Assembly (NCBI GenBank): GCA_905250025.1
Contig: CAJNOJ010000132.1
Span: forward strand, 62,001 to 126,000
DNA: 64,000 bases
Direction of reading: 5' to 3'
Source of the DNA: Adineta ricciae
Taxonomy: Eukaryota; Rotifera; Eurotatoria; Adinetida; Adinetidae
This document shows, one piece after another, positions 1 to 64,000 of the stretch. Made by a program: the position numbers and the translations under genes. The notes under the pieces are model-generated. The model made no database searches and had not been told where the DNA came from. It saw only the letters and a program-made list of their open reading frames with translations. The number at the start of each line of letters is the position of its first letter. Position 1 is the stretch's first letter.

Positions 1-3000
1 TGTTTTCAAAGTTATTGTTAATGATTATGGTTTAGAAACTATGCAACATTTGTCAGCTGATAAACAAACTTATGGTTCTTTATTACATTTAATTGACTTT
101 CATTCTTTCGCTACTGAAAATGATAATGATGATATGTTTACTTCTCAAACTACACAAGGTCCTATTCATTTTACCACAAATTATTCCTGTATACCTCAAA
201 CTCCACTCTTTCATTTATTTCATGAACGTATTTCGTCACATGCTAATGCCATCAAATCTACATATATTCGTCGTGATCATATGTTAAAATGCACAGGTAA
301 TAACATATTTTGTTGTGACATATCTCATAAGCATTTCCGCTTTAGAACAACGACAAGAATCAGAAGATGATGTTTGTGATAGTTCCTTCAAGGTTACTAC
401 CAATTCGAATTTTACAATCAAGAATAACAACACTCCTTTGACATTTGAACGTTTTCGTTCTGAACTTATAACTTCAATTAAAAATGATAAAATATTAAGT
501 GAGGCCGTCAATAGTTCTACTGTTCATTCATACTGTCAAGATCTTGTCAGTACATCGTGTTCGATGATCGAACACAATTTTCATTACGATCGTGTTCAAC
601 AACAACAAACTGCCGAATTTATCTCAAAATGGTTATCATTTATCGATCATAGTGATCGACAATCCAACGAATATGACACCCCAAAAGATATCTGGCTTCT
701 AGGACATATTTACACAACATTTGAATACGAAAAAAGTGATCTACTTTCAATGTACACTGCTTGTCGAATCATGCATCATTTAGAATTGACACAATCCTCA
801 TTTACTAATGTATTTGCTGAACGATCTGGCGACCGTTCTGTTCTTCGAGAAGCTTTTTTTCGTTCTATTTTCGATCAATTATGGTCAAGTCTTTGTCAAT
901 CATCTTCCAATACAGAGAATCATTATCACAAATGGATTTTTACATATACATTTATATCCAAATATTATCCATCAGAAAAAGTTCTAGAAGGTATACCACT
1001 AATCGACATCAAATGTCAGATTCAATTGATGAATTTGGCTTATTTGATATTTTTAAATGAAAAAATTCCTAAACCACAAAAGTTAGTAACAAATTTATTG
1101 GATAAATTACAAATCAATACAAGATCGGATTGTTTAGTTTTATTACCGAAAATTCTTGAAATAATCCACGAAGAAAATCTTGATAATTCAACATGGATGA
1201 TCGATGTACAACAATGGATTCTAGTCATTTGTAAATCATCAACAGAATCGAAAGAAGAAATACTTCGAACTTTACTTTCTTATTTGAATCAATCGACAAC
1301 TTCTCTTTCATTATCAACAAAACAATTTCTATTCGATCAATTAATTGAATTATTCCTCAAGATAAACAAAGACAGTGAATCGAACACGGATTTATGGGAT
1401 CGTTTTAGTTTACTATCAATTCTTATCGAATGTGTTTCAAACGTTGATCATTATCAAATTTTTTTCCATCCATCAATGAAAATCAATGATCAAAAAATGA
1501 TTCTATTTGATCTCTACTTTTTTCATCTTCGTGCTCTATTAAAACATCAAAATCTTACATTTGCATTTTTAAACAAAGGTATGCTTCTTGGATTATCAAA
1601 TATCCAAACAAAAGAGAAGAAAAATCTAGCTGAAAATTTATTTAAACAATTGAAAAATTATTTTCTTTCAATTATCATGGCACTTTTACTCATCGATATC
1701 GAATCCAATCAAAATGATGAAAACGACATTCTAAAAGCATTTTCATCTTTGACAGATGATCTGTTTTCTATTAATCCTACAATGGAATATCTTCCCGATT
1801 ATCTTAAACTCTTTCTTTCCACCATTATATCAAAGAAATCTTGGGATTATTTATTCAATTTATTAAGATCGGAAAAACTACGAATGATTAACAAAGATTG
1901 GACAACAGTTCTTTATCGATTACTTCATTTAAATGAAACGAATGATCAAAGTTTAAATTTACATTTATCACATCAAATTCAGTTTACTTTTTCAACAAAT
2001 TCAAATAAATCGTCGAGTTTTCCTGATCTCCATCAACCATATGAAACATTACGAACACTGATGAAAACATCAATAGAAAATAATACCGGCGAAGATGTAT
2101 GGCAAGAAGTCATTCATTGGATGCAAAATCAAGTAGATTGTGAATCACTAGAGATGAGTGTTAATCAATTAAAATCCATGTTATTCTTAAGTATTTACTA
2201 TGATTATTATTGTACTAATCAATTAGAATTAGTTCAGCCATTAGTTGATGTACTTCAAGAGTTATCATTCTTTTCTGAGGAAGAATTCAGTGTATTTCGT
2301 GCTTTAGTAAATCCTGAACAATACATCATAGGTTACAATTCGCCTGATAATACTAACTCAATAAATAAACTTTTTCAAATCAATTGTCAAACAAGTTTTG
2401 AATTGTCTTTACGTCATTTATTAGTAAATTTAATGGCAATGATCCTATTAGGCGGTGATGAATCATTTCTTTGGACATTTGTATTTGATCCATTGTCTTT
2501 AGAACATACGTACGGTCAGTTTTATTTCATATGATAAATCTTGAAAATTTAGTTCTATTGTTGATATGAAAAGGTTTTGGGTCGACATACCAATCACCAA
2601 TCGAACAACATGGTGTGCATTACGATTGTGGATGTGTTATCACTGAAGATGGTGTTCTTGAACGATCATTCGATTCAACTGATAACAGTGGATTAAGCGT
2701 TCCAGCTGTATATGTGGCTTATTTTTCTACATTTGGTGCATTGGTATGTTGAATTTTCTACATATTTTTAATCATGTTCTTTTTCTTCAAAGGCTTGGCA
2801 TCTATTAACATGTGACAGAGGAGCTGACAATTTGTATGGTCCAATTTTGTCACCAAGGGCAATCGAAACAACTGCTCATGATCATAGAGAAAATGATCGA
2901 GAAACGCTCACTAAAGTCTGTGATTTTGTCTATGCTAGATTATCGTCGACGTTTGATTTTCTATCCGTTCGATTAAATCATGACGGTGCTTGTCTTTTAT

Positions 3001-6000
3001 TAACTCGTTGTTTCGAACAGATGGCTTCTTTAACTGATACAGAACAGGAATGGATTCAGCCCGTTTATACAACATTCAATGAAAAGCAAAATGCTGAACA
3101 AGAATTTGAGCGACATGTTTTCTATTATGTATTCGATAGATTAATTAACTATAAAGCTGATATCAATCATAGAATTCTTCAATCACAAATTCAAATCAAT
3201 CTTCAAGAATATTGCGATCAAATGCCATTCACCATTGAATTTCAACATTTTCAAACACTACTTAATCATTCCAAAACAGAAGCTTCATCAAATTTTCAAC
3301 TTCTTCGATTGATTTTGGATTCATTCAATATTTTAAAAGTAACAAAACTAATCATTCCACTTACACGGTTTTACCTTCTTTTACATCACACGTACACACA
3401 ATTAATTAAACAAGATGAATTATTTACAATTTCTCTGAACGAATTATTCGAGCGTGCTGAAAGATGCTCTTATCAATACGATAGTTCACGTAATCAAAGC
3501 GAAAAAGAAAATCATCGAGAAATCATTAAAGAAGGTATTGATGCAGTCAACAGTTATCATCAATTTTCTGATGGACTTATTCAACCAGGTGCTTGTAATC
3601 ATACGGAAAAATTTTCAACAATAACCTTTGATTCACCAGTCAATGTTTTACTCACAACGAGCAATTCAGACGAAGGAAACATTATTATGCGAATACTCAC
3701 GTAAGAACATTCTTAGAATGATCGACATGGTGTCAAGAAATAAAAACTGATGTTTTTTCTTCTTCATTCTAGTGTTTTAATTCGACGTCACAATCGTATT
3801 TTGAGAGTATTATCAAATGAAATGTGTACAAATAACCATTACGATCACAGTACTTTGAAATATTTAGTAAATGACATAACGTCAAAGAAGATTTCCATTC
3901 TACAACTAATTAATCATAATACTGGGATTATATCATTAGATGAACAAGATTGTCAATGGACTCAAAGATTATGTCAGTCATGCATAATTAGCAATGATGA
4001 GTATGCTTTTATTAATAACAAATCTTCATATACGTTCGATTTTGAATACATTCAATCACAAATTATTCGAATCTATTTACTTTATTGTGAAATAAATTAT
4101 GATCATATCACTCAAATTTATCAATGTTATATCGAACAAATGTCAACAAAAACAGAGAACGAAGATTTAGACCTACATGAGAAATATATGTTATTATTTA
4201 ATAATGAACAGATTGAGTCTGAATGGAATTATTTGAAAACTATACCTTTAGATAATCTTTATAATTCCTTTACATTATTAAAACAAATTGCCTCATCATT
4301 AAAAACATTCTCAAATGATCTTGATCAACCAAGTACTCTTTACAGTTTTCTTGGTTCAACCGATGAAGGTCGTGATATACTTGAACGAATAAAACAACAT
4401 GGAATTCGTGATTTTTCTCTATGCCATTTAAATCATATGATTAAACTTTATGCACAATCAATAAACGGATTTGAGCATTTATTTGCGGATGTATCACCTT
4501 TGTTACGAATGTCCATTGAACCTCAACTAGATGCCGAATTAACTCAACAATTTGATGAGCATATTCTGCAATTAAATTATGATAATAATATAGAGAACTT
4601 TCAAGAAATGAATAAAATAATAACCGAATTCCTTAATGATTTAAAGGATTCAAAAGATTTAATGTTACAACAATCTTCACAATGTTTTAAAACAACTTGT
4701 CAAATTCTCGAGATACATAATCCGATTTTACAATGGATACCAGAGGGAATTCGTTGTGAAAACTATGTCGCAATCAATATTCATCTCATTCGAATACGAT
4801 CGACTCTTCAGGAATCAAAAGTTAATGTCGAAGAAAAAACAATCAGATTATGGCAAGAACAAACCGAATGTGAAGATAAGGATTCTGAAACACATTCACA
4901 CTCGGCTGACCCAGATGAATATTCGGAATCTGAAGAAGCAGATTATCATAGCATGTCATCTTCACCATCAGTAACAAGACAGAACTCAATTGGTGAAACT
5001 AATCCAACGTATTCGCGTTCGCCATCACAACAACTGGAAACACCTGAAATTGAACCTTTAATTTATGACTCATTATTCCAACTTAACTTGAGATCCGTAT
5101 CATATTTATCATTAAAATTTATGCAAAGTTTACATCAATATCGAACAGAACGTATCACAGAAGCTGTAAGTGCAAGTAGTGCACTAAGATTCATAGTTAC
5201 TCTTCCTGATGAAAAATCGATCGCACCATTCATGTGTAAAGCAGAGAAATCTCAAGCACGTTTAAAGAAAATCTTTGATGATAATCATTACGATCATAAC
5301 GAGTTCGCTTTGATTGATAAAAATCAAATATTCGTCGACATAAATGAAGATAATTTTCTTCCATCACAAAAATCACCAATTGAATATCGTATCGTGAAAC
5401 AAGAAGATCTAGTTTGTGTGAAATTCCATTTTCATTCATTAAACATCGAATATGTCACAACGATTACAAATCAACTCGAAACGATAATCAAACATTTTAT
5501 TAATAATCATATTCAACCAAATGACAAATATCTTTGTTTCTATGATCAATATGGAGCTTTGATTGAGAATGTTTGTATCGAAAATGTTTTTGATAAGAGT
5601 GAAAAATGTGTGAACATCGTAGTAAAAGAAAAGACAGTTGATGATAACAGTATATGCGAAATAAATCTGACAAGTAAAGAAAGTAAGAAATCATATAGTT
5701 ATTTTCTGATGATTGTAGAATATTTTAGATATACATCAATCAACGATTTACTTCGATTTGGAATCAACATGGTTCAATATTGAACAATGGTTAAAAGATT
5801 TTTGTCAAAGAAATCATCTCTCTGTTAATGATTATGCTTTTATGATGGCAAAAGAACGAATACTATGTGAAAAAACTGAATCAATTGGTTCAATTATAGA
5901 TGCAACGCAATCAAATCTAGTCGATGTTATTAATCAACAAGTGATCACTTCCGTAACTGTTTCATATGAAAATAAGAGTGAAAGTTTCCATGTTCTGGCA

Positions 6001-7104
6001 TCGATGAAAATCATCCAATTATTCAAAGATAAAAATTTCCAAGAAAATTTTAATATAATCGATCATGCACTGAAGAATTTTATGGTAAATTTAGAAAAAG
6101 AAAACGAAAGTTTGACTCTTACGGAAGAACAAATGCAACAATCTATCGAAACGTATCGTTCAGCATCGAACGATTCACTTCATCTTCGATTGTTTATACC
6201 AACAAGTATCATGATAAAATACAATGAAGAGATTCTTTCATTAGTTTTGCAGACGCGAAATATAACAATTCGAGAAATATTGAAAAAACTTGATGAATCA
6301 ATGATTCTTCATCGATGTTTAGTTTTAAAAGAAACAAAAAGAGTGCTAGATGGAAATGAAGTTCTTTCAGATTTATGTGGAATTGAATTTCTTTTAGTTG
6401 AGGAAAACGAAATACGTCACGTTTGCATTCAATTGGCAGAAATCAACATTAGACAACGTTTTATCAAACATGCGACAATAGCCGATCTATGCAAAGAACA
6501 AAAAATCATCCTTGATACTCAACATGTTATCTACTCAAACGAAATTATTTTATTACCAGAAACACCGTTAACTTGCTTTCAATCAAAAACACCAATATGC
6601 TTTTCCATTACGGAAAAAAATTTACCCATTCGTGTTACAGTGAGGGACGATCAACAACAAAACTCAATCACATTTTTTTGTGATTCTTCAATGAGTATCG
6701 AATATCTTCGTTCTCTTTCTTGTCACTTCTTGTGTGTAATCAAAGATAATGCTAAATTAGCGTTAACTGATGGAACAATAACCGATGATGATCTGTCGTT
6801 AATGGACATTGTTGAAAACCTGACAGAAATAGAGTTTCAACTCAGTACTCCACTATGCTTGTCTTGTTCAATTACATGTTCAAATCATACGATAGTATTG
6901 CCTTGTCAATTAAATCAAACAATCTCATCACTGGTCAGTGATTTGTTCAATCAACTTTCGATTCCATTTGATCAAATGCAAACATATACATTATTTGCTT
7001 TGGGTACAGTGGAAAATGAAATCGATGTCGAATTATCCATTGAAGATATAAAAGATTTATTTCCTTCGTCAACTTCAACGATTAAGATCGAACTGAGAAA
7101 ATGA
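1..7104 (+). CDS. RNF213-like giant protein, C-terminal part, copy A (5' end outside window)
   Basis: The gene is open at the left edge. Six exons join in frame through GT-AG introns: 1-296, 346-2514, 2574-2743, 2793-3700, 3773-5682 and 5729-7104 (TGA), giving about 2,275 residues. An AATAAA follows at 7179. The last intron is supported because it alone links the frame ending near 5780 to the frame that runs to 7104. The protein is largely helical. A stretch encoded around 2574-2900 (HYDCGCVITEDG, then LSVPAVYVAYFSTFGALAWH, then LYGPILSPRAIE) and a later FVYARLSSTFDFLSVRLNHD segment resemble, from memory, the region C-terminal to the RING/RZ module of RNF213-family E3 ligases. No RING, RZ or AAA motif lies in the window; these would be upstream. 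The final 450 residues hold short ubiquitin-like-looking beta stretches that I cannot name. The exon model is firm; the family name is tentative. Confidence 0.6.
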
Positions 7105-7616
7105 CACACTAAGAAGATTGAGCTTTCTATATTTTAATCATGATTATGGATTCTTCGTTTTTTCAATTACAAGTGAATAATAAATAAATAAATCATACCA
7201 AAAGAAATGTTACTGTGAAGCTAGCACGAACAAATAGTGTGTTAGCTAAAAACGTTTTTACTAAATAAGTTCCGTCCATGAAAACTTCACCATTCGTTGC
7301 AGAATTAAATTCAGCATCGAACAGAACGTATTCCTGAAGACGGGAATTCATTTGAACATAAGGTTTTATATGATTTTTCGTATTCTGGTGTTAGCTTCAC
7401 ACTGATTCCGTTTCCATTAGAGTTCAACGAACTCTATCGTCACTCTTATCCATACTCTTGCCTTTTTACATATCTGTTTGCTAACCCCATCTCACCTGTT
7501 GAAGATTGGAGTACAGCATTGGCAGTTGACAGAGTAGATGAGTCATTGTTCAAGTATATTTTAGCTTGCCATTTGCATCATAGTCAATCACAACTTGAAA
7601 TTACTTAGTGTACACC
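7105..7616. other. Intergenic spacer between giant gene copy A and PP1-like gene
   Basis: It holds the 3' end signals of the giant gene (overlapping AATAAA units near 7179-7191). The rest is spacer that matches 14433-14885 closely, except for about 60 bp near 7208-7266 missing from the other copy. I see no convincing coding exon. Confidence 0.6.
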
Positions 7617-8015
7617 ATGGCAGCCAGCAACGATGATGCACAAGTGAACATCGATGATCTGATTGAACGACTTCTTCAAGGTTCGTTCATTTTCAATTTT
7701 CTCCTTTTTCGAAAAATATTCACAGTCGAATACCATTTCTCTCATTCAAGCACGTAAGGTTCCTGCGACGGATAATTTTGTTCAGATGTCGCTGGAAGAA
7801 ATGAATTTCTTATGCGAGAAATCCGAAGAAATCTTTCTCAATCAACCCGTACTTCTCGACCTGCAAGCTCCGATCACTATATGTGGTATACGATAAAAGT
7901 TGAAAATCTAACTCTTGAAATTGCTACATATGCACTAGGCAGCATACACGGTCAATATACTGATTTACTTCATCATTTTGATCAAGGCGGTTTTCCACCT
8001 CAAACAAATTACCTT
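7617..8015 (+). CDS. PP1-like phosphatase gene, copy A, first three exons only
   Basis: Exons are 7617-7680, 7751-7885 and 7939-8015, where the contig ends at an N. The product begins [20 protein letters not shown] and continues through [20 protein letters not shown] and APITICG, which matches the N-terminus of PP1 catalytic subunits (PPP family). The metal-binding GDIHGQ motif reads GSIHGQ, so the first metal-ligand aspartate is serine. The 3' exons are missing only because of the join at 8016; they should be among those at 15286-16597 or 17204-18244. Its position directly after the giant gene is the same as in the second copy. Confidence 0.8.
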
Positions 8016-8016: not shown

Positions 8017-11000
8017 AATCATCTCACCATCCAGAGAATCACTATCAAAGATGGATTTATACATATACATTTATATCCAAATATTATCCATCAGAAAAAG
8101 TTCTACGAAGTATGCAACTAATCGATATTAAATGTCAGATTCAATTAATGAATTTGGCTTATTTGATATTTTTAAATGAAAAAATTCCTAAACCACAAAA
8201 GTTAGTAACAAATTTATTGGAAAAACTACAAATCAATACAAGATCGGATTGCTTAGTTTTATTACCAAAGATTCTTGAAATAATCCACGAAGAAAATCTT
8301 GATAATTCAACATGGATGATCGATGTACAACAATGGATCATAGTCATTTGTAAATCATCAACAGAATCGATTGAAGAAATACTTCGAACTTTACTTTCTT
8401 ATTTGAATCAATCGACAACTTCTCTTTCATTATCAACAAAACAATTTCTATTCGATCAATTAATTGAATTATTCCTGAAGCTAAACAAAGACAATGAACC
8501 GAACACGGATTTATGGGATCGTTTTGGTTTACTATCAATTCTTATTGAATGTGTTTCGAACGTTGACCATTATGAAATTTTATTCCATCCATCGATGAAA
8601 ACCAATGATCAAAAAATTATTCTATTTGATCTTTACTTTTTTCATCTTCGTGCTCTATTAAAACATCAAAATATTATACTTGCATTTTTAAACAAAGGTA
8701 TGCTTCTTAGATTATCAAATATCCAAACAAAAGAGAAGAAAAATCTAGCTGAAAGTTTATTTAAACAGTTGAAAAATTATTTTCTTTCAATTATCATGGC
8801 ACTTTTACTCATCGATATCGAATCCAATGAAAATGATGAAAACGACATTCTAAAAGCATTTTCATGTTTAATAGATGATCTGTTTTCTATTAATCCTACA
8901 ATGGAATGTCTTCCCGATTATCTTAAACTCTTTCTTTCAACCATTATATCAAAGAAATCTTGGGATTATTTATTCAATTTATTAAGATCGGAAAAACTAC
9001 GAATGATAAACAAAGATTGGACAACAGTTCTTTATCGATTACTTCATTTAAATGAAACGAATGATCAAAGTACGAATTTACATTTATCACATCAAATTCA
9101 GTTTACTTTTTCAACAAATGCAAATAAATCTTCGAGTTTTCCTGATCTCCATCAACCATATGAAACATTACGAATACTGATGAAAACATCAATAGAAAAT
9201 AATACCGGCGAAGATGTATGGCAAGAAGTCATTCATTGGATGCAAAATCAAGTAGATTGTGAATCACCAGAGATGAGTGTTAATCAATTAAAATCCATGT
9301 TATTCTTAAATATTTACTATGATTATTATTGTACTAATCAATTAGAATCAGTTCGGGCATTCGTTGATGTGCTTCAAGAGTTATCATTCTTTTCTGAGGA
9401 AGAATTCACTGTATTTCGTGCTTTAGTAAATCCTGAACAATATATCATAGGCTATCATTCGCCTGATAATGCTAACTCAATAAATAAACTTTTTCAAATC
9501 AATTGTCAAACAAGTTTTGAATTATCTTTACGTCATTTATTAGTAAATTTAATGGCAATGATCCTATTAGGCGATGAGAAGTCATTTCTTTGGACATTTG
9601 CATTCGATCCATTGTCTTTAGAACATACGTACGGTAAGTTTTATTTCACATGATAAATCTTGAAAATTTAGTTCTATTGTTGATATAAAAAGGTTTTGGG
9701 TCGACATACCAATCACCAATCGAATCAGATGGTGTGCATTACGATTGTGGATGTGTCATTACTGAAGATGGTGTTCTTGAACGATCATTCGATTCAGCTG
9801 ATAACAGTGGATTAAGCGTTCCAGCTGTATATGTGGCTTATTTTTCTACATTTGGTGCATTGGTATGTTGAATTTTCTACGGATTTTTAATCATGTTCTT
9901 TTCTTCAAAGGCTTGGCATCTATTAACATGTGACAGAGGAGCTGCAACTTTGTATGGTCCAATTTTGTCACCAAGGGCAATCGAAACAACTGCTGATGAT
10001 CATAGAGAAAATGATCGAGATACGCTCACTAAAGTCTGTGATTTTGTCTATGCTAGATTGTCGTCGACGTTTGATTTTCTATCCGTTCGATTAAATCATG
10101 ATGATGCTTGTCTTTTATTAACTCGTTCTTTCGAACAGATGGCTTCTTTAACTGATACAAAACAAGAATGGATTCAGCCCGTTTATAGAACATTCGATGA
10201 AAAGCAAAATGCTGAACAAGAATTTGAGCGACATGTTTTCTATTATGTATTCGATAGATTAATTAACTATAAAGCTGATATCAATCATAGAATTCTTCAA
10301 TCACAAATTCAAATCAATCTTCAAGATTATTGCGATCAAATGCCATTCACCATCGAATTTCAACATTTTCAAACACTACTTAACCATTCCAAAATAGAAG
10401 TTTCATCAAATTTTCAANATGCTGAACAAGAATTTGAGCGACATGTTTTCTATTATGTATTCGATAGATTAATTAACTATAAAGCTGATATCAATCATAG
10501 AATTCTTCAATCACAAATTCAAATCAATCTTCAAGATTATTGCGATCAAATGCCATTCACCATCGAATTTCAACATTTTCAAACACTACTTAACCATTCC
10601 AAAATAGAAGTTTCATCAAATTTTCAACTTCTTCGATTGATTTTGGATTCATTCAATATTTTAAAAGTAACAAAACTAATCATTCCACTTACACGGTTTT
10701 ACCTTCTTTTACATCACACATACACACAATTAATTAAACAAGATGAATTATTTACAATTTCTCTGAACGAATTACTTGAGCGTGCTGAAAGATGTTCTTG
10801 TCAATACGGTAGTTCATATAATCAAAGCGAAAAAGAAAATCATCGACAAATCATTCAAGAAGGTATTGATGCGGTCAATAGTTATCATCAATTTTCTAAT
10901 GGACTTATTCAACCAGGTGCTTGTAATCAAATGGAAAAATTTTCAACAATAACCTTTGATTCGCCAGTCAATGTTTTACTCACAACGAGCAATTCAGACG

Positions 11001-14000
11001 AAGGAAACATTATTATCAGAATACTCACGTAAGAACATTCGCAGGGTGATCGACATGGTCAAGAAATAAAAACTGATTTTTTTCTTCTTCATTCTAGTGT
11101 TTTAATTCGACGTCACGATCGTATTTTGAGAGTATTATCAAATGAAATGTGTACAAATAACCATTACGATCACAGTACTTTGAAATGTTTAGTAAATGAC
11201 ATAACGTCAAAGAAGATTTCCATTCTACAACTAATTAATCATAATACTGGCATTATATCATTAGATGAACAAGATTGTCAATGGACTCAAAGATTATGTC
11301 AATCATGCATAATTAGCAATGATGAGTATGCTTTTATTAATAACAAATCTTCATTTACGTTTGATTTTGAATACATTCAATCACAAATTATTCGAATCTA
11401 TTTACTTTATTGTGAAATAAACTATGATCATATCACTCAAATTTATCAATGTTACATCGAACAAATGTCAACAAAAACAGAGAACGAAGATTTAGACCTG
11501 CATGAGAAATATATGCTATTATTTAATAATGAACAGATTGAGTCTGAATGGAATTATTTGAAAACTATACCTTTAGATAAACTTTATAATTCCTTTACAT
11601 TATTAAAACAAATTGCCTCATCATTAAAAACGTCTTCAAACGATCTTGATCAACCAAGTACTCTTTACAGTTTTCTTGGTTCAACCGATGAAGGCCGTGA
11701 TTTACTTGAACGAATAAAGCAACATGGAATTCGCGATTTTTCTTTATGCTATTTAAATCATATGATTAAACTTTATGCACAATCAATAAACGGATTTGAG
11801 CATTTATTTGCAGATGTATCACCTTTGTTACGAATGTCCATTGAACCTCAACTAGATGCCGAATTAACTCAACAATTTGATGAGCATATTCTACAATTAA
11901 ATTATGATAATAGTATAGAGAAATTTCAAGAAATGAATCAAATAATAACCGAATTCCTCAATGATTTAAAGGATTCAAAAGATTTAATGTTACAACAATC
12001 TTCACAATGCTTTAAAACAACGTGTCAAATTCTTGAGATACATAATCCGATTTTACAATGGATACCAGAGGGAATTCGTTGTGAAAATTATGTGGCAATA
12101 AATATTCATCTCATTCGAATACGATCGATTCTTCAGGAATCAAAAGTTAATGTCGAAGAAAAAACAATCAGATTATGGCAAGAACAAACAGAATGTGAAG
12201 ATAACGATTCTGAAACACATTCACACTTGGCTGACCCAGACGAATATTCGGAATCCGAAGAACTAGATTATCACAGCATGTCATCTTCACCATCAGTAAC
12301 AAGACAGAACTCAGTTGGTGAAACTAATCCAACGTATTCGCGTTCGCCATCACAACAACTGGAAACATCTGAAATTGAACCTTTAATTTATGACTCATTA
12401 TTCCAACTTAGCTTGAGATCAGTATCATATTTATCATTGAAATTTATGCAAAGTTTACATCAGTATCGAACAGAACGTATCACGGAAGCTGTAAGTGCAA
12501 GTAGTGCACCAAGATTCATAGTTACACTTCCTGGTGAAAAATTGATCGCACCATTCATGTGTAAAGCAGAGAAATCTCAAGCACGTCTAAAGAAAATCTT
12601 TGATGATAATCACTACGATCATAATGAGTTCGCTTTAATTGATATCAATCAAATATTCGTCGACATAAATGAAGATAATTTTCTTCCACTACAAAAATCA
12701 CCAATTGAATATCGTATCGTTAAACGAGAAGATCTAGTTTGTGTGAAATTCCATTTTCACTCATTAAACATCGAATATGTCACAACAATTACAAATCAAC
12801 TCGAAACGATAATCAAACATTTTATTAATAATCATATTCAATCAAATGACAATTATCTTTGTTTCTACGATCAATATGGAGCTTTAATTGAGAATGTTTG
12901 TATCGAAAATGTATTTGATAAGAGTGAAAAATGTGTGAACATCGTAGTAAAAGAAAAGACAGTTGATGATAACAGTATATGCGAAATAAATCTGACAAGC
13001 AAAGAAAGTAAGAAATCATATAATTATTTTCTGATTATTGTAGAATATTTTAGATGTACATCAATCAACGATTTTCTTCGATTTGGAAGCAACATGGTTC
13101 AATATTGAGCAATGGTTGAAAGTTTTTTGTCAAAGAAATCATCTCTCTGTTAATGATTATGCTTTTATGATGGCAAAAGAACGAATACTATGCGAGAAAA
13201 CTGAATCCATTGGTTCAATTATAGATGCAACGCAATCGAGTCTAGTCGATGTTATTAATCAACAACTGATCACTTCCGTAACTATTTCATACGAAAATAA
13301 GAGTGAAAGTTTCCATGTTCTGGCATCGATGAAAATCATCCAATTATTCAAAGATAAAAATTTCCAAGAAAATTTTAATATAATCGATCACGCACTGACG
13401 AATTTCATGGTGAATTTAGAAAAAGAAAACGAAAGTTTGACTCTTACGGAAGAACAAATGCAACAATCTATCGAAACGTATCGCTCAGCATCGAACGATT
13501 CACTTCATTTTCGATTGTTTATACCAACAAGTATCATTATAAAATACAATGAAGAGATCATTCCATTAGTTTTGCAGACGCGAAATATAACAATTCGAGA
13601 AATATTGAAAAAACTGGATGAATCAATGATTCGTCATCGATGTTTAGTTTTAAAAGAAACACAAAGAGTGTTAGAAGGAAATGAAATTCTTTCAGATTTA
13701 TGTGGAATTGAATTTCTTTTAGTTGAGGAAAACGAAATACGTCACGTTTGCATTCAATTTGCAGAAATCAATATTAAACAATGTTTTATTAAACATGCGA
13801 CAATTGCCGATTTATGTAAAGAACAAAAACTTATTCTTGATACTCAACATGTTATCTATTCAAACAAAATTATTTTATTACCAGAAACACCGTTAACTTG
13901 TTTTCAATCAAAAACACCAATATGCTTTTCCATTACTGAAAACAATTTACCCATTCGTGTTACAGTGAAAGACGATCAACAACCGCAAAAGTCAATCACA

Positions 14001-33410: not shown

Positions 33411-33422
33411 AGTAGTTGCTAC

Positions 33423-47342: not shown

Positions 47343-47393
47343 TTTGATTTTCGTTCGTTGTGTACTTGCAGATAGATTTGGTGCGAACCTTAG

Positions 47394-49985: not shown

Positions 49986-50281
49986 AATGGAGTGCCCCAC
50001 TCTAGCCGAGTATCGCAAGCGAACATACAATTTTTATTTGAATCAGCCATTTTTTATACAAGAAAATCATGAAATAAATAATTTCACTTCCTTTAGGTTA
50101 CCTTATCATACGAAATATCGATTGCACGTTTTTTTCCTCATTTTGTTTTTACCTACCTCATTACATCCCTGATTTATTGCTTTTTTTCACCAATCTCTGC
50201 GTAAGAATCAATCAAACGAATAGTCATGCCTTCGATCACTATTTAAATATGAAATAGCAATTGCCTATTTTCATTTACAAA

Positions 50282-52606: not shown

Positions 52607-54735
52607 CTTGTGTTTTACAAAGGTGAACTGAAATAAAGAAAAAAAAAGGAATGAGTTCCTTCGCGTTTGACCTATTTGATACTTATTTAACGCGGTTATA
52701 TGGGTCAAAAAAGGCATCAGTACTCTTTACAGTAGACCTCCAATATTTAAATATGAAACGTTATCTCTCTATGCAGTGTATATAGAAAACCTAAGTAATA
52801 TCATTCTCGTTCTTTTGTCAAAATATAAAATAAAGATAAAATATAATTCATATTTACTCTCAAATGGATTCAAAATAACTCATGTATAGAAGGCCATTGA
52901 TGGCGAGAATGCAGGGGGTAAGAAGGAGAAAAACAAATATCCCTATTAAAATTAAAGTAATGCTACGTAAATACAACAAGATAGTTCACTGATACTTTCT
53001 AAATTTATATTTACAATTGAAATAAAAGTTGGAGAAAACGAATTTGTCCATTGTTTATAACCAAACTGGAAGAACGAACGTTTGGTTTCTCAGGCTTTTA
53101 GAAAATAATGATCAAAACGGTGAATAAATTTCTTTTCATTCGATCATAATTTTTAATGAGTGAACAATACACTCGTTCAGAAACACCAACCAGCTGATGT
53201 ATTTCTTTATGGTATGTTTTTTCTCTCTAATATTATCAGTGCCAAATGCCGCCGTTAAAATCTGTCGAAATGCATTTTTCATACCTTTATTTTCTTGTAT
53301 TTATATGTGGAATGTCTTCTTGCACCTGGATGCATCTATTCAGTCATGCATTCGGGAATGCGCTGCTGAACAGGACTGCTAAGGGAATGTAACAGTAAAT
53401 GTTTATTTGTGATCGGAAAAATCGTGTTAGAATTGTTTTTATTTATAACTAACTATCAGATGCTCATCTACTGTAATAATCACCTACGAAGGTATGTATA
53501 TCACATTCCATAGTAGAAAAGCAATATTATTCAATGGATTTTAGAAACCACTCTTCCAACAACAGCTGCTGATTTGGATAAAACAAATAAGATTAATATC
53601 GAGTTTCTCTTTATCATTTATTAGTAATGAATAAGAATTTAGTGAGAAAGGACGATGGGGAGAAACTGGTTCTTACGTGGGTGGAACAGACAATGGCTAT
53701 CTCGCGGAGTAGGATCAGAGCAGCTCAATTACTCAAATAATCTACAATGCCAATTACATTTACGTTCTGTTTAACATTGGCTCTGCTTCAAGGTAACAAT
53801 TTAATGAAGCAAATGTCGTCCCAGCGCCCTTTTTGTATTTCACCGATCGTGACAAGTGCTACCTCTTTGGATACAAATCAAACTTTACGTTCATGTGGTA
53901 ATTTATCAGCATAAATTATCTGGTCGATCGTTACAAAAATCAAAATGACAATGCTGTCGAATCGCCAACATTTTTAGATCACGTCTGCATTGATGCTCAA
54001 CAATACTCGTTTTCTGCATGTTCACATTAAGATGACATTTGGAACAGCGCTTATGTAGATAAAATAGCCCTAATCGCACATCGTTTAATTCAACTGATTG
54101 CAATCCAATGTTTTATTCAAGGTTTTCAGTTATTTCAATCCGACGTAAATGCCTGCATCTCCTCATTGCATGACTGTATTACCACTATTCTGTGATCGAA
54201 TGAATTTCTCAAAGATATAAAAACAAGCAACCAAGTGCGAGCGACGTTTGAGTTCAAGAAAAATATCATAAGCCGTTTTGACAGAAAGGTAAGACACGAT
54301 CTTTTCACTGGTAAAAATAATTATTCACTCCAATGCTCATCTCGAATAACATTCTATTCACTTTTATCGACGAAGCATAACAATCTGCGTCTAATAAGCG
54401 TGTTAACTATACCATCACACCAAATGTTTAATTCACACGAACACGAACGGAACTACTGCTAAACGACTACATTCCTATCTAGAAGAGCGAAGTTCACGAA
54501 AACGTTAATAAAGAGATAAACAGAGAAACGGGAAATTCAACTGAAAGAAAAAAATACAATTAAACACCAATTCCATGACTTCATCAAAAACCAATATAAC
54601 AATTCCTGATATGAAAGATCTGGCTGAGACAATTTGTTAATTTCCGCTATAAATTGACATGTTGACAGCGGTTTTTACACTTAAGACGAACCTGAAAGTA
54701 CTTTCTCTTTGCTGAGCCTTCTGTGGGTTTTCAAT
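52607..54735. other. Long intergenic region, possible exon debris
   Basis: Two candidate scraps. 53197-53382 encodes a hydrophobic start and SIQSCIRECAAEQDC, reminiscent of a PAN/apple-type cysteine motif, then stops. 53748-53792 encodes MPITFTFCLTLALLQ followed by a GT, like a signal-peptide exon without a convincing partner. Neither is strong enough to call. No tRNA or terminal repeats seen. Confidence 0.3.
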
Positions 54736-55761
54736 ATGTGCAATTCTACTATTGCAGTCTTCGATTCTGTTACTCAACAAACGATTATTTACTTTGGTTT
54801 CTCCCTTTTTATTCTTGGTCTCATTGGCAATCTGTTGACTCTCCTTGTATTCCTCAGTCTCGAAACATTCAGACAAAACTCCTGTGCATTCTACCTCACA
54901 ATCATGTCTTTTATCAACACGTTTCACTTATTCACTGGTTTGTTAACTTTCATCATGATCAATGGTTTTAAAATCAACTGGACCGATGCATCAGTGGCCT
55001 ATTGCAAATTTCGTGCATTCTATATTCAGACATGTGCAATGATATCTTTGTCATGCATGTGCTTGGCGACAGTCGATCAGTTCTTGGCAACGCAGTCTAA
55101 TCGTCGCTGGCATCGATTCAATAGCATCAAAGTAGCTAGGTCGGTTGTTACAGGTATAGCTATATGTGTAACTGCATATTGTATTCCTTTCCTCGTATAT
55201 CGTGGTCATACGACATCAAGCAGCACAGGTCAAGCGATTTGTGACATTACAAATAATGTCTTTGCAAGTTATCGTATTTTTCATAACTCTTTCCTCGCGG
55301 GTATTATTCCATTGCTCATTATGAGTATATTTGGTCTGTTAGCATATCGAAACGTTCAGCAAATAGCCTATCGGACAATACCATTAGTCCGACGTGAATT
55401 AGACAAACAGTTAACATCAATGGTCCTTATTCAAATTTTCTACAACGTTCTTGCTATCACACCGTCATTAACCGTAGGCCTTTATTATTTGATCTTAGAC
55501 AAAACGCTCGATGCATGCAGTAAAACAATATTAAACATTCTCTTAAATCTGTTAGCCGTTATCTATTATTTTTACTATGTGGTGAGTACGAGCCGAAATT
55601 TACCGAAAATCAAAATATAATCTCATATATTTCAGGGTTCATTCTATATCTACGTATGTGTATCGAAAAGATTCCGTCATCAACTGATCTACGTATTATT
55701 TACAGTGCATGCGAATCGTTTTCGCCAACACAACAATCGAATCAAACCCGTAGCACAGTGA
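54736..55761 (+). CDS. Rhodopsin-like GPCR, type 1 paralogue
   Basis: 323 residues from exons 54736-55581 and 55636-55761. The intron sits at the same TM7 position as in the type 1 genes (YYV|GSFYIYVCVSKRFRHQ). Start MCNSTIAVFDS parallels MCDSTAALLS. TM1 (GLIGNLLTLLVFLSLETFRQ) and loop 3 (RTIPLVRRELDKQLTSMV) are nearly those of the type 1 receptors, and DQF again replaces DRY. TM4 and the second extracellular loop are clearly diverged, as expected if ligand preference changed. It is an older duplicate than the a/b pair. Confidence 0.85.
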
Positions 55762-57789
55762 CTCCACCTCCTCTCAACGCTCCGTGTACCCATGTAACTC
55801 TGAGTCAGTATAAACGCAAATGAGTCGTTTCACTCCACATGTTATTATCAAAAAGCTCCTATCATAGAAGTACTTTGTGCGTGGTATATTTCGTCTTTAG
55901 TTCGTGAATAAATGCATATTTCATCTGAGAGAGGTTTTGTCTTTATATTCAACGGTGTCGAAATTTCTGTAGAAATGCGTTTGTTAACAAGAAAACTATC
56001 GCTTTTTGTTATAGTAATAATGATAGTGCGAATGAACTGGGGATGAATGCATTCAGTTATCTCATAGCCGTGTTTCTATGTTTACGAAAGAGAGTTTCAT
56101 GATGAGAGGACTGAACCGCTTTCCTATGAATTCAAGTCAAAAGCTTCTCACGGCTGCAAATTTACGAGATTTTCTTGCATTACTGAGATAACTCAGCTCT
56201 GAAGCTGGGGAACTATTGCAAATATCGAATAACGAACGAACCAACCAGATGGTTGATTCCGGTTATAAACAATGAAGGAAAATGGTTTCACTAGCGTTTT
56301 GTAATACATACTCGGCGAAGTCGTCGTTTTCACGGTAGTTAGTAATTAGTACTAGCATGTATATAAGTCTATCCTGAGATATTAAGTACACAAGGTTAAA
56401 TATGCTGATTTTTACCGCCATTTCTTGGTGAAAGGCCTGCATGGCTAGTTAGGTCTTGGTCATTTGAAGTTTGACGATTATTGATAGTTCTTATAAAGCG
56501 TGGCTAAGCTTTGAATATAATAATCATTCGTCTGTTTGACGCGTATTTTTCCGTAATTTTTTGAAATCTTATGATTACAGACAGTTCTCAATTTTTGAGT
56601 CATGCGAGATTAAATTTCGTATTACAGTCCAACGATTCCTCTAAGATAGACGTGGGTAGCTTCAAATGAAAGACAACCAGTCATGCATCAAACCGGTAAA
56701 GATAATGAGGGTGTCGTCCTACTGTTCCTTGAGAACAAATGGAAAGTCTATTTTTAAAACCTCATTGTCAGACAAAATGTCACGCGAGATTGTTATGCAT
56801 ACAAACATATCATGCACAAGATTAAAATAAATAATTTGAACATCAGACAATGCCGTATGAAATGAGATTTCAATACTCATATGGAGCGACTAGGGTTTGA
56901 ATTGAACAAATGCGAAGAGTAGCAAGAAGCTATTATAATCAAATGGGATGCTTTGAAATTTCCCGTGTATTTTCAACTTATGAGTGTATCTACGCAAGAA
57001 TCAAATCTAATGCAATATGAACCACATTCTCAGACTCATTTTTTCTAGATAAATTATGGTTGCACCTAAAACACAGATTAGGTATTTATTCTTCCATAAA
57101 CATATGGGAAAAACTTGAGTCGGATAAAGCCCTATACTTCCTGAAAAACTCTTGTATCTCGGTTATTTTAACAGTAACTGTCGGACAAGTTTGTGCGTAT
57201 TCTCTTTTTACATACCACGCAATATTCGCTGCACTGAAATTCGGAAACTTTTTTTTCATCAATTTTTTAGTCCAACGGTACAATAAACTTGCAATTCGCT
57301 CATACACTATAAGACGAGCATGCGTTCAAAGATCGAATGGTACAAAGAGTTTCTATCTGATCTGATATAAAACATTAAGATTTTAGCTGGCGAAAAGGAC
57401 GTTGTTGATCAACACCAGCATGAAAATCTAACTTGAGTTTTCTGCATCAGAAATATTTGTATGTTAAATCGTGTATGTTGAGACATTTGATGAATTTTGT
57501 TTTATTCAATTCATTACAGACAGAAAAGCTTTAGTGAGATGAATTAAAAAAACCTTATTCAATGTGCATCTATATTTATCTTTTCGACATGGTGCAAAAA
57601 AAAGAGAACACACTGTTTCTTAAAATGAATTCTGCTCAAATAAAGTGCGTTTCTGCTCTCATTTATAATACGATTATTATGGAAATCACAAGACACGAGG
57701 ATTATTTTGCACATGACTTCATGTAATCGTCTTAGAGTTCAGTATATATAATACAGCTGCTCTAAAGCATTTATCATCAGCGATCACGA
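55762..57789. other. Intergenic region without accepted genes
   Basis: Two kilobases with overlapping short frames on both strands near 57060-57365 but no consistent exon, tRNA or repeat end. Confidence 0.4.
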
Positions 57790-59069
57790 ATGCTACATAT
57801 GGCGACTATTCAGAACAGTTCTAGTTATTCTATCACATCGTCCTCAATGACAGCTGTGAATACCCCTTTCCTTGTATTCTTATACCGTTATGGATTGGGT
57901 CTAATAATTCTTTTGGGTTTCTTTGGCAATCTCGCTAGCACCATGCCATTTTCACTAGCAGCAGTACGTGCTACCTCAACTGGTTGTTTGTTCTTAGTTT
58001 TGGCAGTATTAGATACTGTGTTTCTGTTGGCATCGACTTTCGACTTTGTGGAAGTTGGATTGGTTCAAGGACCCATATTCCTCAATGCTTATGATGTTGT
58101 ATGTCGACTTCGTTCGTTTCTCAAAGGCTTTGCTTCATTCTGTGCAGCATGGATCTTGTTGATCATCGCCATAGACCGTTGGATACGAGTACGGTACTCA
58201 CTTATGGCGAATAAATGGTGCACCCATCGAAATATAGCTCTAGCCATTTTGTCTTCTGTGACCATCGCTACTGCACTGCATAGTCATATGCTAAGTCCTC
58301 AATTGTTTGGTAGATTCATGCCTGGTGTTGCAACATCTGCATGCGGATCCGTAAGTCCTATTGGTTCATACGCGAATTTTTACACTTTTCAGTGGCCATT
58401 TATTCAAGTGAGACAAGAAAGCAAAAATTTGAAAGTGATAATTCTGTTCTCTACATTTTAGGTAATCTTTGGCTGTCTAATACCTCTTTCTATTATGCTT
58501 TTGGGTAGTTTCGATATTTATCAAAACCTGCAGAAGAATAAATCTCGTATCCAGCCGAAGTTTGCACGTCAAGAACGTTTGAACCGACAAATGTTAATCA
58601 TGATGGCAGTAAATGTTCTAACCTTCTTTGCTACCACACCACCAGTCAATGTTCGTCGAATTATTAGTGCATATCAAATGTCGTTTGCAAGTGAAAGTAA
58701 TCTTCAGAGGATTGTGAATGAAACGGGTGGTCTTACGGTGTTATTAACAATGAATCATGCAGTAAGTTGCGTTGAAAGGATACCTAGAATCAGTTGATCT
58801 GATTACCAACAACTTTATACATGATATGAGTTGGATTGAGAAAACAGAACTTTGCTCTTTTGTATTTTATTAAATAGGTCAACTTCTATATTCATTATCT
58901 GACGTCAAAATCATTTCGTAATGAGTTTCTTCACTGTCTCAGAGTACTTCTTCGACTTCCTCAACACCTAGCGAACAACAACGTGATCGAAATCCAGATT
59001 ACTCAAGTGAGATCAAAACTCTGTACCATTTCCCTCACAGGAATGCGTCGTAATCAACTTCAGACATGA
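57790..59069 (+). CDS. Rhodopsin-like GPCR, third type
   Basis: 369 residues from exons 57790-58407, 58462-58761 and 58878-59069. The joins give TFQWPFIQ|VIFGCLIPLSIMLLG in TM5 and LTMNHA|VNFYIHYLTSKSFRNEF in TM7. The second is the usual TM7-to-helix-8 sequence, so the last exon is secure. TM1 has FFGNLAS, TM2 VLAVLDTVFLL, and TM3 ends LIIAIDRWIRVRYS, a near-standard DRY motif. This receptor therefore keeps the G-protein coupling motif that the DQF receptors nearby have lost. N-terminal N-glycosylation sites (QNSSSYS). Probably a peptide receptor of the FMRFamide-receptor-like group; ligand unknown. Confidence 0.82.
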
Positions 59070-59835
59070 GTTGGACATTAGTAGAGAAAGCCTTTTCTTA
59101 TAAATGTTGTGTATTGTACGAAATAAAAGGAATCTATCGCAGAGAAGTCATCGCACTAGAGCGCATAGTTTGGTTGGAAACAGTGCTCTGTCCGAGAGAT
59201 GAAGTCATAAGTTTAACTAAGAAAGACGGCGAGTTTCCAATCGAACAAAAGCCTTTTTCTTAATATTAAAAAATGAGAGTTAAGAAAATGTATGAGACAA
59301 CTACGATGCACAATGACATTCAAAATTTGAGCAAGATGCTTTTTGTTTGCATATTCTTACACTGTTTGATGGAGATCGTTGGCGTCTACAAAACTGCAGA
59401 TAACAAAACAACTCAAATCATACTTGTAAAATCTTGAACTTAGGTCCAAAGAGCGTGGCTTTTATATTAAAAAAAAAGGTAATTGTTTTTCTAAAAAAAA
59501 CGCTTTCTTGTTTTTAATTATTTTTATCTCCGCTGACGTTTCCAAATCAGCGCGATTGGGTCAGCATGTTTAAAGCTCATCCGATTAGAATGTTCATAAA
59601 TACTCATTGTAAAAATATCAATTAAAAGTATTTTAGTCTAGTCGAAATATAAGTTTTCTGTACAAAGACTATAGCAGAACGCAAAAATAACGAGTTCATT
59701 TCGAGCAGATCGATTCATTCTACTTCCAAATGTAACTTGATAGATTTTATAAATCGTAGTGAGTCTATTTTCATGTACTCAATATTTCATTGTTGACGTC
59801 AAACATTTCATCTTCAAATTTGTATATCGACTTCG
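59070..59835. other. Intergenic sequence up to a scaffold gap
   Basis: No exon seen. Ends at the run of N. Confidence 0.4.
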
Positions 59836-59904
59836 NNNNNNNNNNNNNNNNNNNNNNNNNNNNNNNNNNNNNNNNNNNNNNNNNNNNNNNNNNNNNNNNN
59901 NNNN
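59836..59904. other. Scaffold gap of 69 N
   Basis: Run of N of estimated size, unlike the single-N joins. The sequence after it begins inside a kelch repeat identical to copy a. Confidence 0.98.
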
Positions 59905-60336
59905 ACAGGAATTTGGACAACTACTGGCAGTATGAATCATGCGCGATATTCTCACACAGCATCTCTTTTGACCAATGGAAAAGTCTTAGTAGCCGGTGGT
60001 CTTAATTCCAATGGAGCTTTGGACAGTGCTGAACTATATGATCCTTCAACGGAAATTTGGACGACGACGGCAAATATGAATTACACACGATGGTATGCTA
60101 CAGCATCAGTATTAGCAAACGGAAATGTAATGATAACTGGAGGAGCCAATGATCACGTATTAAACACTGTGGAACTATATGATCCTTCAGTGCAGACTTG
60201 GACGACTGTTCACAACATGAACGGTGCACGACATTTGCACACAGCGTCCGTGCTAAAAAACGATATGGTGATAGTGATTGGTGGACGAAATTCTGATATA
60301 ACTTTGAATACTGCTGAGTTTTATTCATTAGTTTAA
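59905..60336 (+). CDS. Kelch-propeller protein, 3' end of copy a
   Basis: Begins inside a repeat (TGIWTTTGSMNHARYSHTAS) and runs to the same C-terminus as copy b (TLNTAEFYSLV). 59905-60146 is identical by eye to 31534-31775, including bases where copy b differs. This is therefore the missing tail of the gene started at 30671. It is displaced by about 28 kb by the assembly and is not a separate gene. Confidence 0.85.
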   Translation, partial: TGIWTTTGSMNHARYSHTASLLTNGKVLVAGGLNSNGALDSAELYDPSTEIWTTTANMNYTRWYATASVLANGNVMITGGANDHVLNTVELYDPSVQTWTTVHNMNGARHLHTASVLKNDMVIVIGGRNSDITLNTAEFYSLV

Positions 60337-60774
60337 ACCAGTATTATGAATGACCCTTTGAAGAAAGTGGGCGCAAAATTAGCCGTGCATATTAGTGTGT
60401 TTTAGTCCTCGAGTTTTTCATTGTATAACTACCACATCAACATCCATAGATTCTTCTTTCTTTTTAGTTATCTACACTTGTCACAATCGCCTCACTATTC
60501 TTGTCGCGTGGGCTATGAAAATAAATACTGATATACCGACTTCTTGTTAATACGGACGAATCCGGAGGGAACGTTTCGTTTTTGTTCGCCAGCAGAGTTT
60601 GAGAATGAAAGAATGAGAATATTATATAGTGACGAAAAATCCGAAGTTGGTAGTGACAATTCTTCGTAGTTGTATGAGAAGCAAACTGGTAAACATAAAT
60701 CATCACTGTTGAGTTTTATCTCAGTGTAAGTGTAAGAAGTCTTTCTAATATATTACCTTAATAACTCAAATGAA
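60337..60774. other. Convergent 3' region, second copy
   Basis: Near-duplicate of 46531-46967; no exon seen. Confidence 0.45.
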
Positions 60775-61149
60775 TCACAAATTACCAACAAAAAAATGTC
60801 TCACAAATAAAGTTGAAAAGAAAAGAAAAAATAGTTTTGTTCCTTGTAATGCGTTGCCATCACATTTACCTTCATTAATATGATATGCCTTTGATGTATC
60901 GCATGACAAATACTGTTTTGAGCAACGTATTTCACAATCAATGTCAGTACAAAAAGTATTATTTTCATAGTAAATAATTCCTATGAGTTTCGGTGTGCAT
61001 GTTGTATATCGAGGATCATAACAACACTTGCAAAGACATTTTCTCGATTTTGCTGTAAGCTGCTGCGTTTTCAACGCTGCATTTCGTTCACAATCAATTT
61101 GCGTTATCCAAAGGAAACAGATCAATAGAATAGCTGTTGAAACCTTCAT
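60775..61149 (-). CDS. 10-Cys secreted GPI-like protein, type C, copy a
   Basis: 124 residues, minus strand. KCLCKCC and all following scaffold cysteines are kept at the spacing of the copy at 46968. One more cysteine appears before the scaffold (IDCERNAA) and one is lost in the tail (LFFLFF against LCFLFF). A TATA box sits at 61201-61208. Confidence 0.75.
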   Translation of the reverse strand: MKVSTAILLICFLWITQIDCERNAALKTQQLTAKSRKCLCKCCYDPRYTTCTPKLIGIIYYENNTFCTDIDCEIRCSKQYLSCDTSKAYHINEGKCDGNALQGTKLFFLFFSTLFVRHFFVGNL

Positions 61150-61200
61150 TTAGATTTTCGTTCGTTGTGTACTTGCAGATAGATTTGGTGCGAACCTTAG

Positions 61201-61208
61201 TATTTATA
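61201..61208 (-). promoter_or_regulatory. TATA box of 10-Cys C gene, copy a
   Basis: TATAAATA on the minus strand, same distance to the ATG as in the other copy. Confidence 0.55.
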
Positions 61209-61655
61209 GAGGGTAGGAGTTTCGTTTTATCATTATTCTTATCAAAACAATCTTACTGTAGTCTTTGTCATTGACGTCAATCGTGGGCGGTAAAGATTAT
61301 GTTTATACTGCTTTAGTTCGATCGATCATTGGCGTGTCTATTCCATTTTCGAAATGAAAAAAGAAGATTTCCAACGTAAAATTTGTTTTTTACTGCCGGT
61401 CGTAAGTTATATACTTAAAGGTATGGAATTCTTTTTTTTTTCTTAACCATGCACTTAGAAGTACTGCATACATCTATTGAAATGACGTCAAATAGTGAAA
61501 TAATTACAGCAGCATTTTGTCTGACTCATTGTTGGAAAAATAAGAGTATTTTAGAGAAATTGAATTTTGTTGGTACTTCCCGCAATGTTCATGGCACTAT
61601 TTATACTCCGATATTCAGATCGGATTTTAATAGACATTTCCAAAAGGTGAATAAC

Positions 61656-62363
61656 ATGGCACTAGAAGTACATCAACAAGAACAAATTCAAGTGAGTACG
61701 ATAGGCGACACAGGAGTCGTGGCGGTGGCACAGCGAAGCACCATCGAAATGGGTATGCCTCGAAATACCTCGAAATTGGCATTTATTCGAAATACGTATC
61801 CAGCTCATTACAACCATGTTGTACGTAATATGAATTCGATCAATTATCAGACAAATACAAAGGCGAAGCATTCGATGCGCGGCGGACATTTTCTGCTCTA
61901 TCGTTATATCATATCTCTTGCCATTATATTATGTTTAGTCTTCGGTGTGATCAGCATTTATGTCAAAGGATGTGCATCAGTTCCGTTCATTCTTACTGTG
62001 GTTTACATCGCCATTAGTATTTATAATATCGTTATTTATATAAAAAACCGACCACTTCTCAATCCTCTTTTGGCGATACAAGTACCAAGAGACATTCTAC
62101 CTGAATTCATGAATGAGTTTTATACTGTGCCTATTAATGCTACTGTTCTCACTGGAGCAATTGCGGCTTTCGTAAATCCAGCTGTGATCGCAGCAGCCGT
62201 TAGGAAAGATAATGTTCAACTGTGTGAAATACAAATCATGTTATACGATGATCTTTACCTACGTCATTGTCGATTTCCGTGGGAAATTACCGTTCATTTG
62301 CTGATATTCATTGTCTTATTCTTCTTGGCAATTGGCTTTGTCAGTGCTAAAGCGTCGTCTTGA
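61656..62363 (+). CDS. Unrecognised multi-TM protein, copy a
   Basis: 235 residues from the ATG at 61656 (MALEVHQQEQIQV), the methionine shared with the copy at 47850. The frame is open further upstream with a different sequence. Hydrophobic segments are preserved (YIISLAIILCLVFGVISIYV and so on), and the last 150 residues are almost unchanged. Function not recognised. Confidence 0.7.
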   Translation: MALEVHQQEQIQVSTIGDTGVVAVAQRSTIEMGMPRNTSKLAFIRNTYPAHYNHVVRNMNSINYQTNTKAKHSMRGGHFLLYRYIISLAIILCLVFGVISIYVKGCASVPFILTVVYIAISIYNIVIYIKNRPLLNPLLAIQVPRDILPEFMNEFYTVPINATVLTGAIAAFVNPAVIAAAVRKDNVQLCEIQIMLYDDLYLRHCRFPWEITVHLLIFIVLFFLAIGFVSAKASS

Positions 62364-62502
62364 ACCACATATAAATACAAATTTTATTACTCGAAGAACT
62401 ATTCTGAACGCTCTTCACTAAATATCTCAGCTAATTAAGCGTGAATGCGCAAAACAATGCATACCATGTATTTCACAATACGCTGGTGTCGAGCGAGATA
62501 GA

Positions 62503-62772
62503 ATGACTCACGTTTACAAGTGTAGATTTTTCAATTTTTTCATTCCATTGTTGTTTGCTTTTGTCGCATTTCTCGTTTTTTTCTTTTCATTCTTTCCTGC
62601 TTATATAAATTGCGCGTATTTCGACCGTAAAACAGTCATTTGTTCACTTTGTTTTTCATTATTTAACAACTATCAGGTTTTGGAATACAACAAGAGGAAG
62701 ACTTTATTCACGTATCGATTATGTATTCTTATCCGTAAGTTATTGTTAAGTTGGCAATCTGCTATCGATTAG
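62503..62772 (+). pseudogene. Possible small multi-TM protein, frameshifted copy
   Basis: Counterpart of 48697-49002. Agreement holds to FNNYQV; then one extra T moves the reading frame. Whether the parent frame is a real gene is itself uncertain. Confidence 0.3.
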
Positions 62773-63252
62773 TGGGCTCATTCGTGCCAGATATAGATTG
62801 AATAGATGAATATTTTATCTTCAATCAGAATCATAGTTGTATAATCATTATATTATTAATAGTGGACTAAACATTAGTTTTGCAAAATTGTTTGAATATA
62901 TGATGAAGTATTCCTAGATTTTTCAGTATATTGACATATTGTAGAAAAATTTCTGTTATTAATCGAGTGTTTTAAATTGTCCATATTCAATACAGTCTCT
63001 AGATATATAAAAACTTATTTACTAGTTTGGCAGCTATCAGCCTTATACGCACATGCATACCACTATGCTACATTCCCCATGGATTTGTACCAATGCACAT
63101 CGATCTCTTTTTTTGTCTTATTTTAGTAAACAAGGTTTCACCATCTTTTACCGCCGGTTTCAAAACAGCATAGTACCAGTAGAAAGCCGCTTGCACAAAT
63201 TTGCTTGACACGAATCAAAAGGTTATTTGTACGTCACTAGCATCATAGACAC

Positions 63253-63789
63253 ATGTCTGACGATAAAGAACTGATGCCACGTGTAGAAGAAATTCAAACT
63301 CTAGCTGAAACCAATGAAGATATGATGAAGCAAATCGATAATATGGGATCAAGAGTAGTTAACCTTACGACCTACGTCATAAGGTGCAGGGGCTGTATAT
63401 TTACGGTTGAAGAAGTTAAGGAAGCTCAATACGCAAATCAGATTATCAGCAACTGACGTGAAAATATCCAGCTAACTGAAATTGAAGATATATTCAATGA
63501 CAACATTTCTTATACTTGTTACTCGTACGGGGAACTAAAAGCAGTCAATTCGGCTATGGCTCGAGTCGTTAAAAAATATAAATTGTTTGGAAGTAGTAGA
63601 ACAGCTCTGGGCGAAATTTACAAATTCGCGAAGAACTTTCGTGTAATAAAAGCAGTATTAGAGAGAATAACTGCATTACTTAACGATGGTGGCGGTGGTC
63701 GTTTGGATAAGATACGAGAACGGTTAGACAATCTTAACAATCAAATCAAAGCACTTCGTACTACATATACAAATATTAAATTTTCTTAG
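63253..63789 (+). pseudogene. Helical-protein gene with nonsense mutation, copy a
   Basis: Same length as 49449-49985 and no indel. Codon TGG of the intact copy (NNWREN) is TGA here (63454-63456), ending the protein after 67 residues. Downstream codons remain clean (MARVVKKYKLFGSSRTALGE...), so the mutation is recent, or the short product is tolerated because the other copy is intact. Confidence 0.75.
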
Positions 63790-64000
63790 AATGGAGTATC
63801 CCACTCTAACGAGTGTCGCAAGCGAATATACAATTTTTATTTGAATCAGCCATTTTTATACAAGAAAATCATGAAATAAATAATTTCTCTTCCTTTGGGT
63901 TACCTTATCATATGAAATATCGATTGCACGTTTCTTCCTCATTTTGTTTTTACCTACCTCATTACATCCCTGATTTATTATTTTTTCACCAATCTCTGCG
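63790..64000. other. 3' flank, matches 49986-50190
   Basis: Downstream flank of the helical-protein copy. The window ends before the counterpart of the gene at 50282 would start. Confidence 0.5.

Follow-up and report, generated by a model that had tools for sequence, protein, structure and literature searches.

The 64,000-base window of Adineta ricciae DNA analysed here is, in our assessment, almost certainly a wrongly scaffolded part of a heterozygous animal genome, in which contigs from two homologues about 5-6% apart have been interleaved and one further segment, f, is extra. The tandem duplications that the window appears to contain are an assembly artefact, not a biological feature. Single Ns stand at positions 8016, 10418, 15285, 17203, 31776 and 34516, and a run of 69 Ns at 59836-59904; all seven segment boundaries are thus marked by Ns, and between them lie eight N-free segments (a to h), listed here with three features within or between them.

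a, 1-8015, plus strand: giant gene plus initial part of the PP1-like gene (one copy)
b, 8017-10417, plus strand: left part of the giant gene, other copy; 95.5% identical to 898-3299
c, 10419-15284, plus strand: right part of the giant gene plus initial part of the PP1-like gene, other copy; 94.2% identical to a
d, 15286-17202, plus strand: PP1-like gene and tRNA-Met; true continuation is g
e, 17204-31775, plus strand: copy two of the locus, PP1-like gene through mid-kelch; true continuation is h
f, 31777-34515, plus strand: third copy of the stretch that follows the tRNA; in-frame TAA in the two-TM frame; about 1.5 kb missing
g, 34517-59835, plus strand: continuation of d, in the first copy of the locus
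h, 59905-64000, plus strand: second copy continued from e, ending at the window edge; 94.35% identical to 46099-50201
N gap, 59836-59904, no strand: 69 N; homology-implied gap of -13,737 bp
PP1-like motif stretch, 15286-15602: copies at 7795-8015 and 15064-15284
tRNA-Met in d, 16974-17045

Comparison of the window with itself reveals one locus twice, with a matching b plus c, d matching the start of e, e matching g, and g matching h, each time in the same orientation. Two of the listed matches of at least 100 bp are inverted; both of these pair kelch repeats (to 51377-51643). No inverted exact 100-mers are shared within the window. Identity between the copies is mostly 92-95% by segment self-comparison, and about 5-6% of sites differ. 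Positions 898-8015 of a align to merged b+c at 94.6% over 7,121 columns; d and e are 95.1% identical; e and g align in long blocks of 87.4% (indel-rich), 92.5% and 93.9%, with two short blocks at 83.7% and 71.1%; and positions 46099-50201 of g align to h at 94.4%. For the remainder of g (50202-59835), self-comparison found no long second copy within the window.

The ends of the segments disclose how they belong together. Exact suffix-prefix overlaps join segments that are not neighbours as drawn: a to d over 221 bp, d to g over 221 bp, and e to h over 242 bp. Exact overlaps are also present, unmerged, between two pairs of drawn neighbours, b and c (209 bp) and c and d (221 bp). Every exact direct run of at least 200 bases found by the scan lies at a segment end, and the longest internal run is 199. 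The last 242 bases before 31776 are identical to 59905-60146, and the last 221 bases before 17203 are identical to 34517-34737; the reconnections of 31775 to 60147 and of 17202 to 34738 proposed in the preliminary description of this DNA are therefore exact. Both a and c end in the identical 221 bases with which d begins, so that the sequence alone allows either a or b+c to continue into d.

Reconnection restores collinearity and reading frames. With overlaps collapsed, d+g measures 27,015 bases and e+h 18,426. The d/g junction is then spanned by one alignment (e+h 1-4257 with d+g 272-4465; 4,280 columns, 90.1% with indels) and the e/h junction by another (9708-18426 with 8652-17381; 8,746 columns, 94.0%), while merged b+c aligns to a along its entire length. 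As drawn, the kelch frame passes from e into tRNA sequence in f; joined from e to h, it yields 336 amino acids with the same end as the 336 amino acids in g. As drawn, a PP1-like exon passes from a into giant-gene sequence; its frame continues as PP1-like across a-d and likewise across c-d. The giant-gene frame is continuous across collapsed b-c, giving 316 residues as against 310 in a.

Together, the alignments and exact end overlaps confirm what the preliminary description had proposed, namely two copies of one locus in the same orientation, broken at the Ns and interleaved. Its copy paths, d (15286-17202) into g and e (17204-31775) into h (59905-64000), are supported by overlaps, collinearity and frames, and the overlaps and the restored collinearity and frames equally bear out its warning that the scaffold at face value suggests false tandem duplications. 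Its list of N joins as copy switches needs one correction: 8016, 17203, 31776, 34516 and 59836-59904 are indeed switches, but 15285 separates the true neighbours c and d, whose overlap has been written twice. The same is true of 10418, a join absent from that list, where b and c are true neighbours with their 209-bp overlap written twice. Five of the seven joins (a|b, d|e, e|f, f|g and g|h) thus change copy or step back along the locus.

When the segments are placed on common coordinates, their left ends fall at 1 (a), 898 (b), 3091 (c), 7795 (d), 8066 (e), 9491 (f), 9491 (g) and 21073 (h). The drawn order is the order of these left ends, a property of 2 of the 40,320 possible orders of eight segments, in a test conceived after the data had been seen. 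The right ends (the seven that are known, f's being excluded) are unsorted. Homology implies gaps of -7,118 bp at a|b, -1,646 bp at d|e, -11,824 bp at e|f and -13,737 bp at g|h, and the six computable joins range from -209 to -13,737 bases; f|g was left out of the computation because the right end of f has no match.

An assembly history of the following kind could produce this arrangement. A contig assembler would have held the two homologues apart, breaking contigs at stretches of about 221 bases in which the homologues do not differ. A scaffolder may then have linked contigs of both homologues, whose near-identity would draw the same linking evidence, laid them by left end along the locus, and written a single N wherever its gap estimate was zero or negative. 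The correct path of one copy would then be (a or b+c)-d-g and that of the other e-h, f being an additional, third copy of a single stretch. The 69 Ns ahead of h represent a positive gap estimate, for which the minimal-N idea does not account.

The software itself can be considered further. An overlap of 221 occurs at two independent junctions, a single k-mer length cannot account for 209 and 242, and f has only 121 bases in common with g and d. We considered a k-mer ladder (221 as 222-1, 121 as 122-1) as proof of a single assembler and rejected it, given the misfit of 242 and 209 and the A. ricciae read length of 100 bases. Published short-insert reads of A. ricciae are of that length (PMC5916493), too short for graph overlaps of 221 bases, and hence either the assembly departs from the published pipeline or the overlaps arose in another way. 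SSPACE-LongRead, which belongs to the A. ricciae pipeline (PMC5916493), sorts contigs by where they fall on long reads and, given an overlap, closes negative gaps by merging; it also drops any contig overlapping a better one by 200 bases, which counts against it here (PMC4076250).

Segment f requires separate treatment. Over 1.13 kb, pairwise identity is 94.23% for e-f, 94.15% for e-g and 93.74% for f-g; 29 sites are unique to e, 34 to f and 35 to g, 2 sites differ in all three, and the differences show no clustering. The two-copy scheme of the preliminary description consequently stands for the main copies of the locus but not for f, which belongs to neither, being equidistant from e and g. 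A gene-conversion mosaic of e and g was rejected as an account of f, on a count of 61 runs where 66.1 are expected (P 0.15). At a codon that reads TTA in both e and g, the two-TM frame of f carries TAA. About 1.5 kb present in both e and g is missing from f, whose tail beyond about 33.4 kb matches nothing else in the window.

We lean towards the view that f is an old paralogue, tandem or dispersed, and not a third haplotype, a view that the in-frame stop and the deletion suit and to which the unmatched tail also points. A later copy from one homologue should sit nearer to that homologue, however, and f is equidistant; the tail, moreover, falls in a stretch where e and g themselves differ by large indels, and on that account it decides neither for a homologue nor for a paralogue. 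The equal distances among e, f and g suit a third homologue. It is conceivable, if rather doubtful, that f is a third homologous haplotype and that the locus has at least three about equally diverged homologues (an ABC structure). Should this be true, it would fit the read depth and ploidy of A. ricciae, which have been called anomalous, without explanation in the cited passages (PMC5916493, PMC7953838). We also rejected the idea that the right end of f is the 5' half of a tRNA continuing into g: with the N removed, neither f|g nor e|f yields a tRNA in ARAGORN, and Rfam tRNA matches at 34513-34575 and 31773-31840 cross the N over a cut tRNA.

Allelic divergence of 5-6% is high for most animals, and this speaks for the possibility that the two main copies, instead of being alleles, are duplicates that have diverged (homoeologues or segmental duplicates at two loci), in which case the scaffold would still be misjoined. 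Gene order, however, is identical along the shared parts, and pooled Ks between the copies is 0.117 (Ka 0.036) over ten ORF pairs, three of them from the giant gene, with the h/g kelch pair excluded as it overlaps the e/g kelch pair. This Ks lies within the published range for homologues, close to the A. ricciae value of 0.135 (SD 0.036; A. vaga, 0.05), and far outside that for ohnologues, 0.61-1.27 across four bdelloids (PMC5916493). Allelic divergence has been put at 5.5% in A. ricciae and 2.4% in A. vaga (PMC7953838). GC content is 34.5% in the window (30.4-36.1% by segment), as against 35.6% in A. ricciae and 30.8% in A. vaga, and two introns of the PP1-like gene measure 53 and 55 bases, beside medians of 55 and 58 bases in the two species (PMC5916493). 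In Ks, identity, GC and intron length the window is compatible with the published A. ricciae values, which are not diagnostic. A likeness of the kelch and GPCR sequences may also point to a bdelloid rotifer. We infer that the copies are alleles, and regard diverged duplicates as very improbable.

Least probable of all, and barely credible, is real linkage of homologous blocks in tandem on one chromosome, which can point to the drawn order itself, where alone collinear homologous genes share a scaffold, and to two tandem-linked homologous blocks reported in the A. ricciae assembly (PMC5916493), but under which true breakpoints give no reason for left-end sorting, every copy switch would have to coincide with Ns, segment ends would have to overlap non-neighbours exactly, and junctions expected to be continuous sequence are instead Ns and genes that are cut as drawn and whole once reconnected.

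An 881-bp insertion in g (37568-38448), absent from e, shows TATC (4 bp) duplicated when compared with the empty site in e, and its 11-nt terminal inverted repeats (CGGCTTGTCCA) are perfect; by these features it is a putative non-autonomous DNA transposon, present in one copy only. Segment e carries a second tRNA-Met with its 3' flank (21965-22083), 97.5% identical to the tRNA at 18621 and in N-free surroundings. No matching tRNA was found in g as its counterpart, and it looks like a real copy-specific duplicate. Also in e, about 1.7 kb at 25233-26911 is AT-rich, has no long ORF and is mostly missing from g.

Among the labels first assigned to the genes, Pfam supports GH43, the two GPCRs and kelch, and PDB sequences support PP1-like, whereas the ORF called DUF4430-like has no Pfam match at E 0.001. 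Pieces of the giant gene, which may be RNF213-like, found no counterpart in Pfam (2 pieces, at E 0.001) or in the PDB (at E 0.1). At the GDIHGQ and GDYVDRG motifs of the PP1-like protein, Ser, Asn, Asn and His replace the Asp, Asp, Asp and Arg of PP1, and d reads LSPH where e reads LSPD; to judge from these residues, the protein is possibly a catalytically dead relative of PP1. A stop-free GH43 glycosidase ORF of 374 amino acids lies in this animal locus in both copies (22642-23766 and 38734-39858) and was possibly acquired horizontally; a pattern scan of prokaryote contigs for bacterial relatives matched 4 stretches, none of them confirmed, and shows no donor. A further GPCR ORF in g (54685-55620), about 69-72% identical to GPCR1 in DNA and inside one contig, is an older paralogue that stands outside the false duplication.

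Three known systems bear comparison with this window. In contigs cut from assembly graphs with fixed overlaps (PMC5368935), neighbours share exact ends, as they do here, and overlapping contigs give negative gap sizes or are left unmerged with a gap written in, as is also seen here; unlike that case, the overlaps here are 221 twice but 242 and 209 elsewhere, and so do not reflect one k.

Bdelloid genomes offer a second comparison. Linked homologous blocks were described in A. vaga in 2013, and two tandem cases in A. ricciae; many breaks in collinearity span scaffold Ns, as the authors warn, and linked homologues in the 2013 A. vaga assembly were taken as a sign of ameiotic evolution (all PMC5916493). 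As in those blocks, collinear homologues share one scaffold in our window; unlike them, as the cited passages describe them, the junction sequences here expose a misjoin. Taken at face value, this scaffold would give false tandem duplications, cut or chimeric genes, and homologues linked on one chromosome. Since linked homologues once served as evidence of ameiotic evolution, a misjoin exposed by its own junctions is a useful warning. It also suggests a screen that needs no reads, which looks for exact overlaps of N-flanking ends with other contigs and for contigs in left-end order along a locus.

The third comparison is with heterotype false duplication, one sign of which is an assembly gap between the members of a duplicated pair on one scaffold (PMC9516828); such gaps are what we find. 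Its other signs would be haploid, roughly halved read depth over either copy, joins with discordant read pairs or linked reads, and single-copy k-mers of heterozygous type in the two copies. There, as here, diverged alleles adjoin on one scaffold with gaps between them, and false gene gains and chimeric genes result. The present window differs from the cases described in the cited part of that source in that several contigs of both copies are interleaved by left end, a third copy included.
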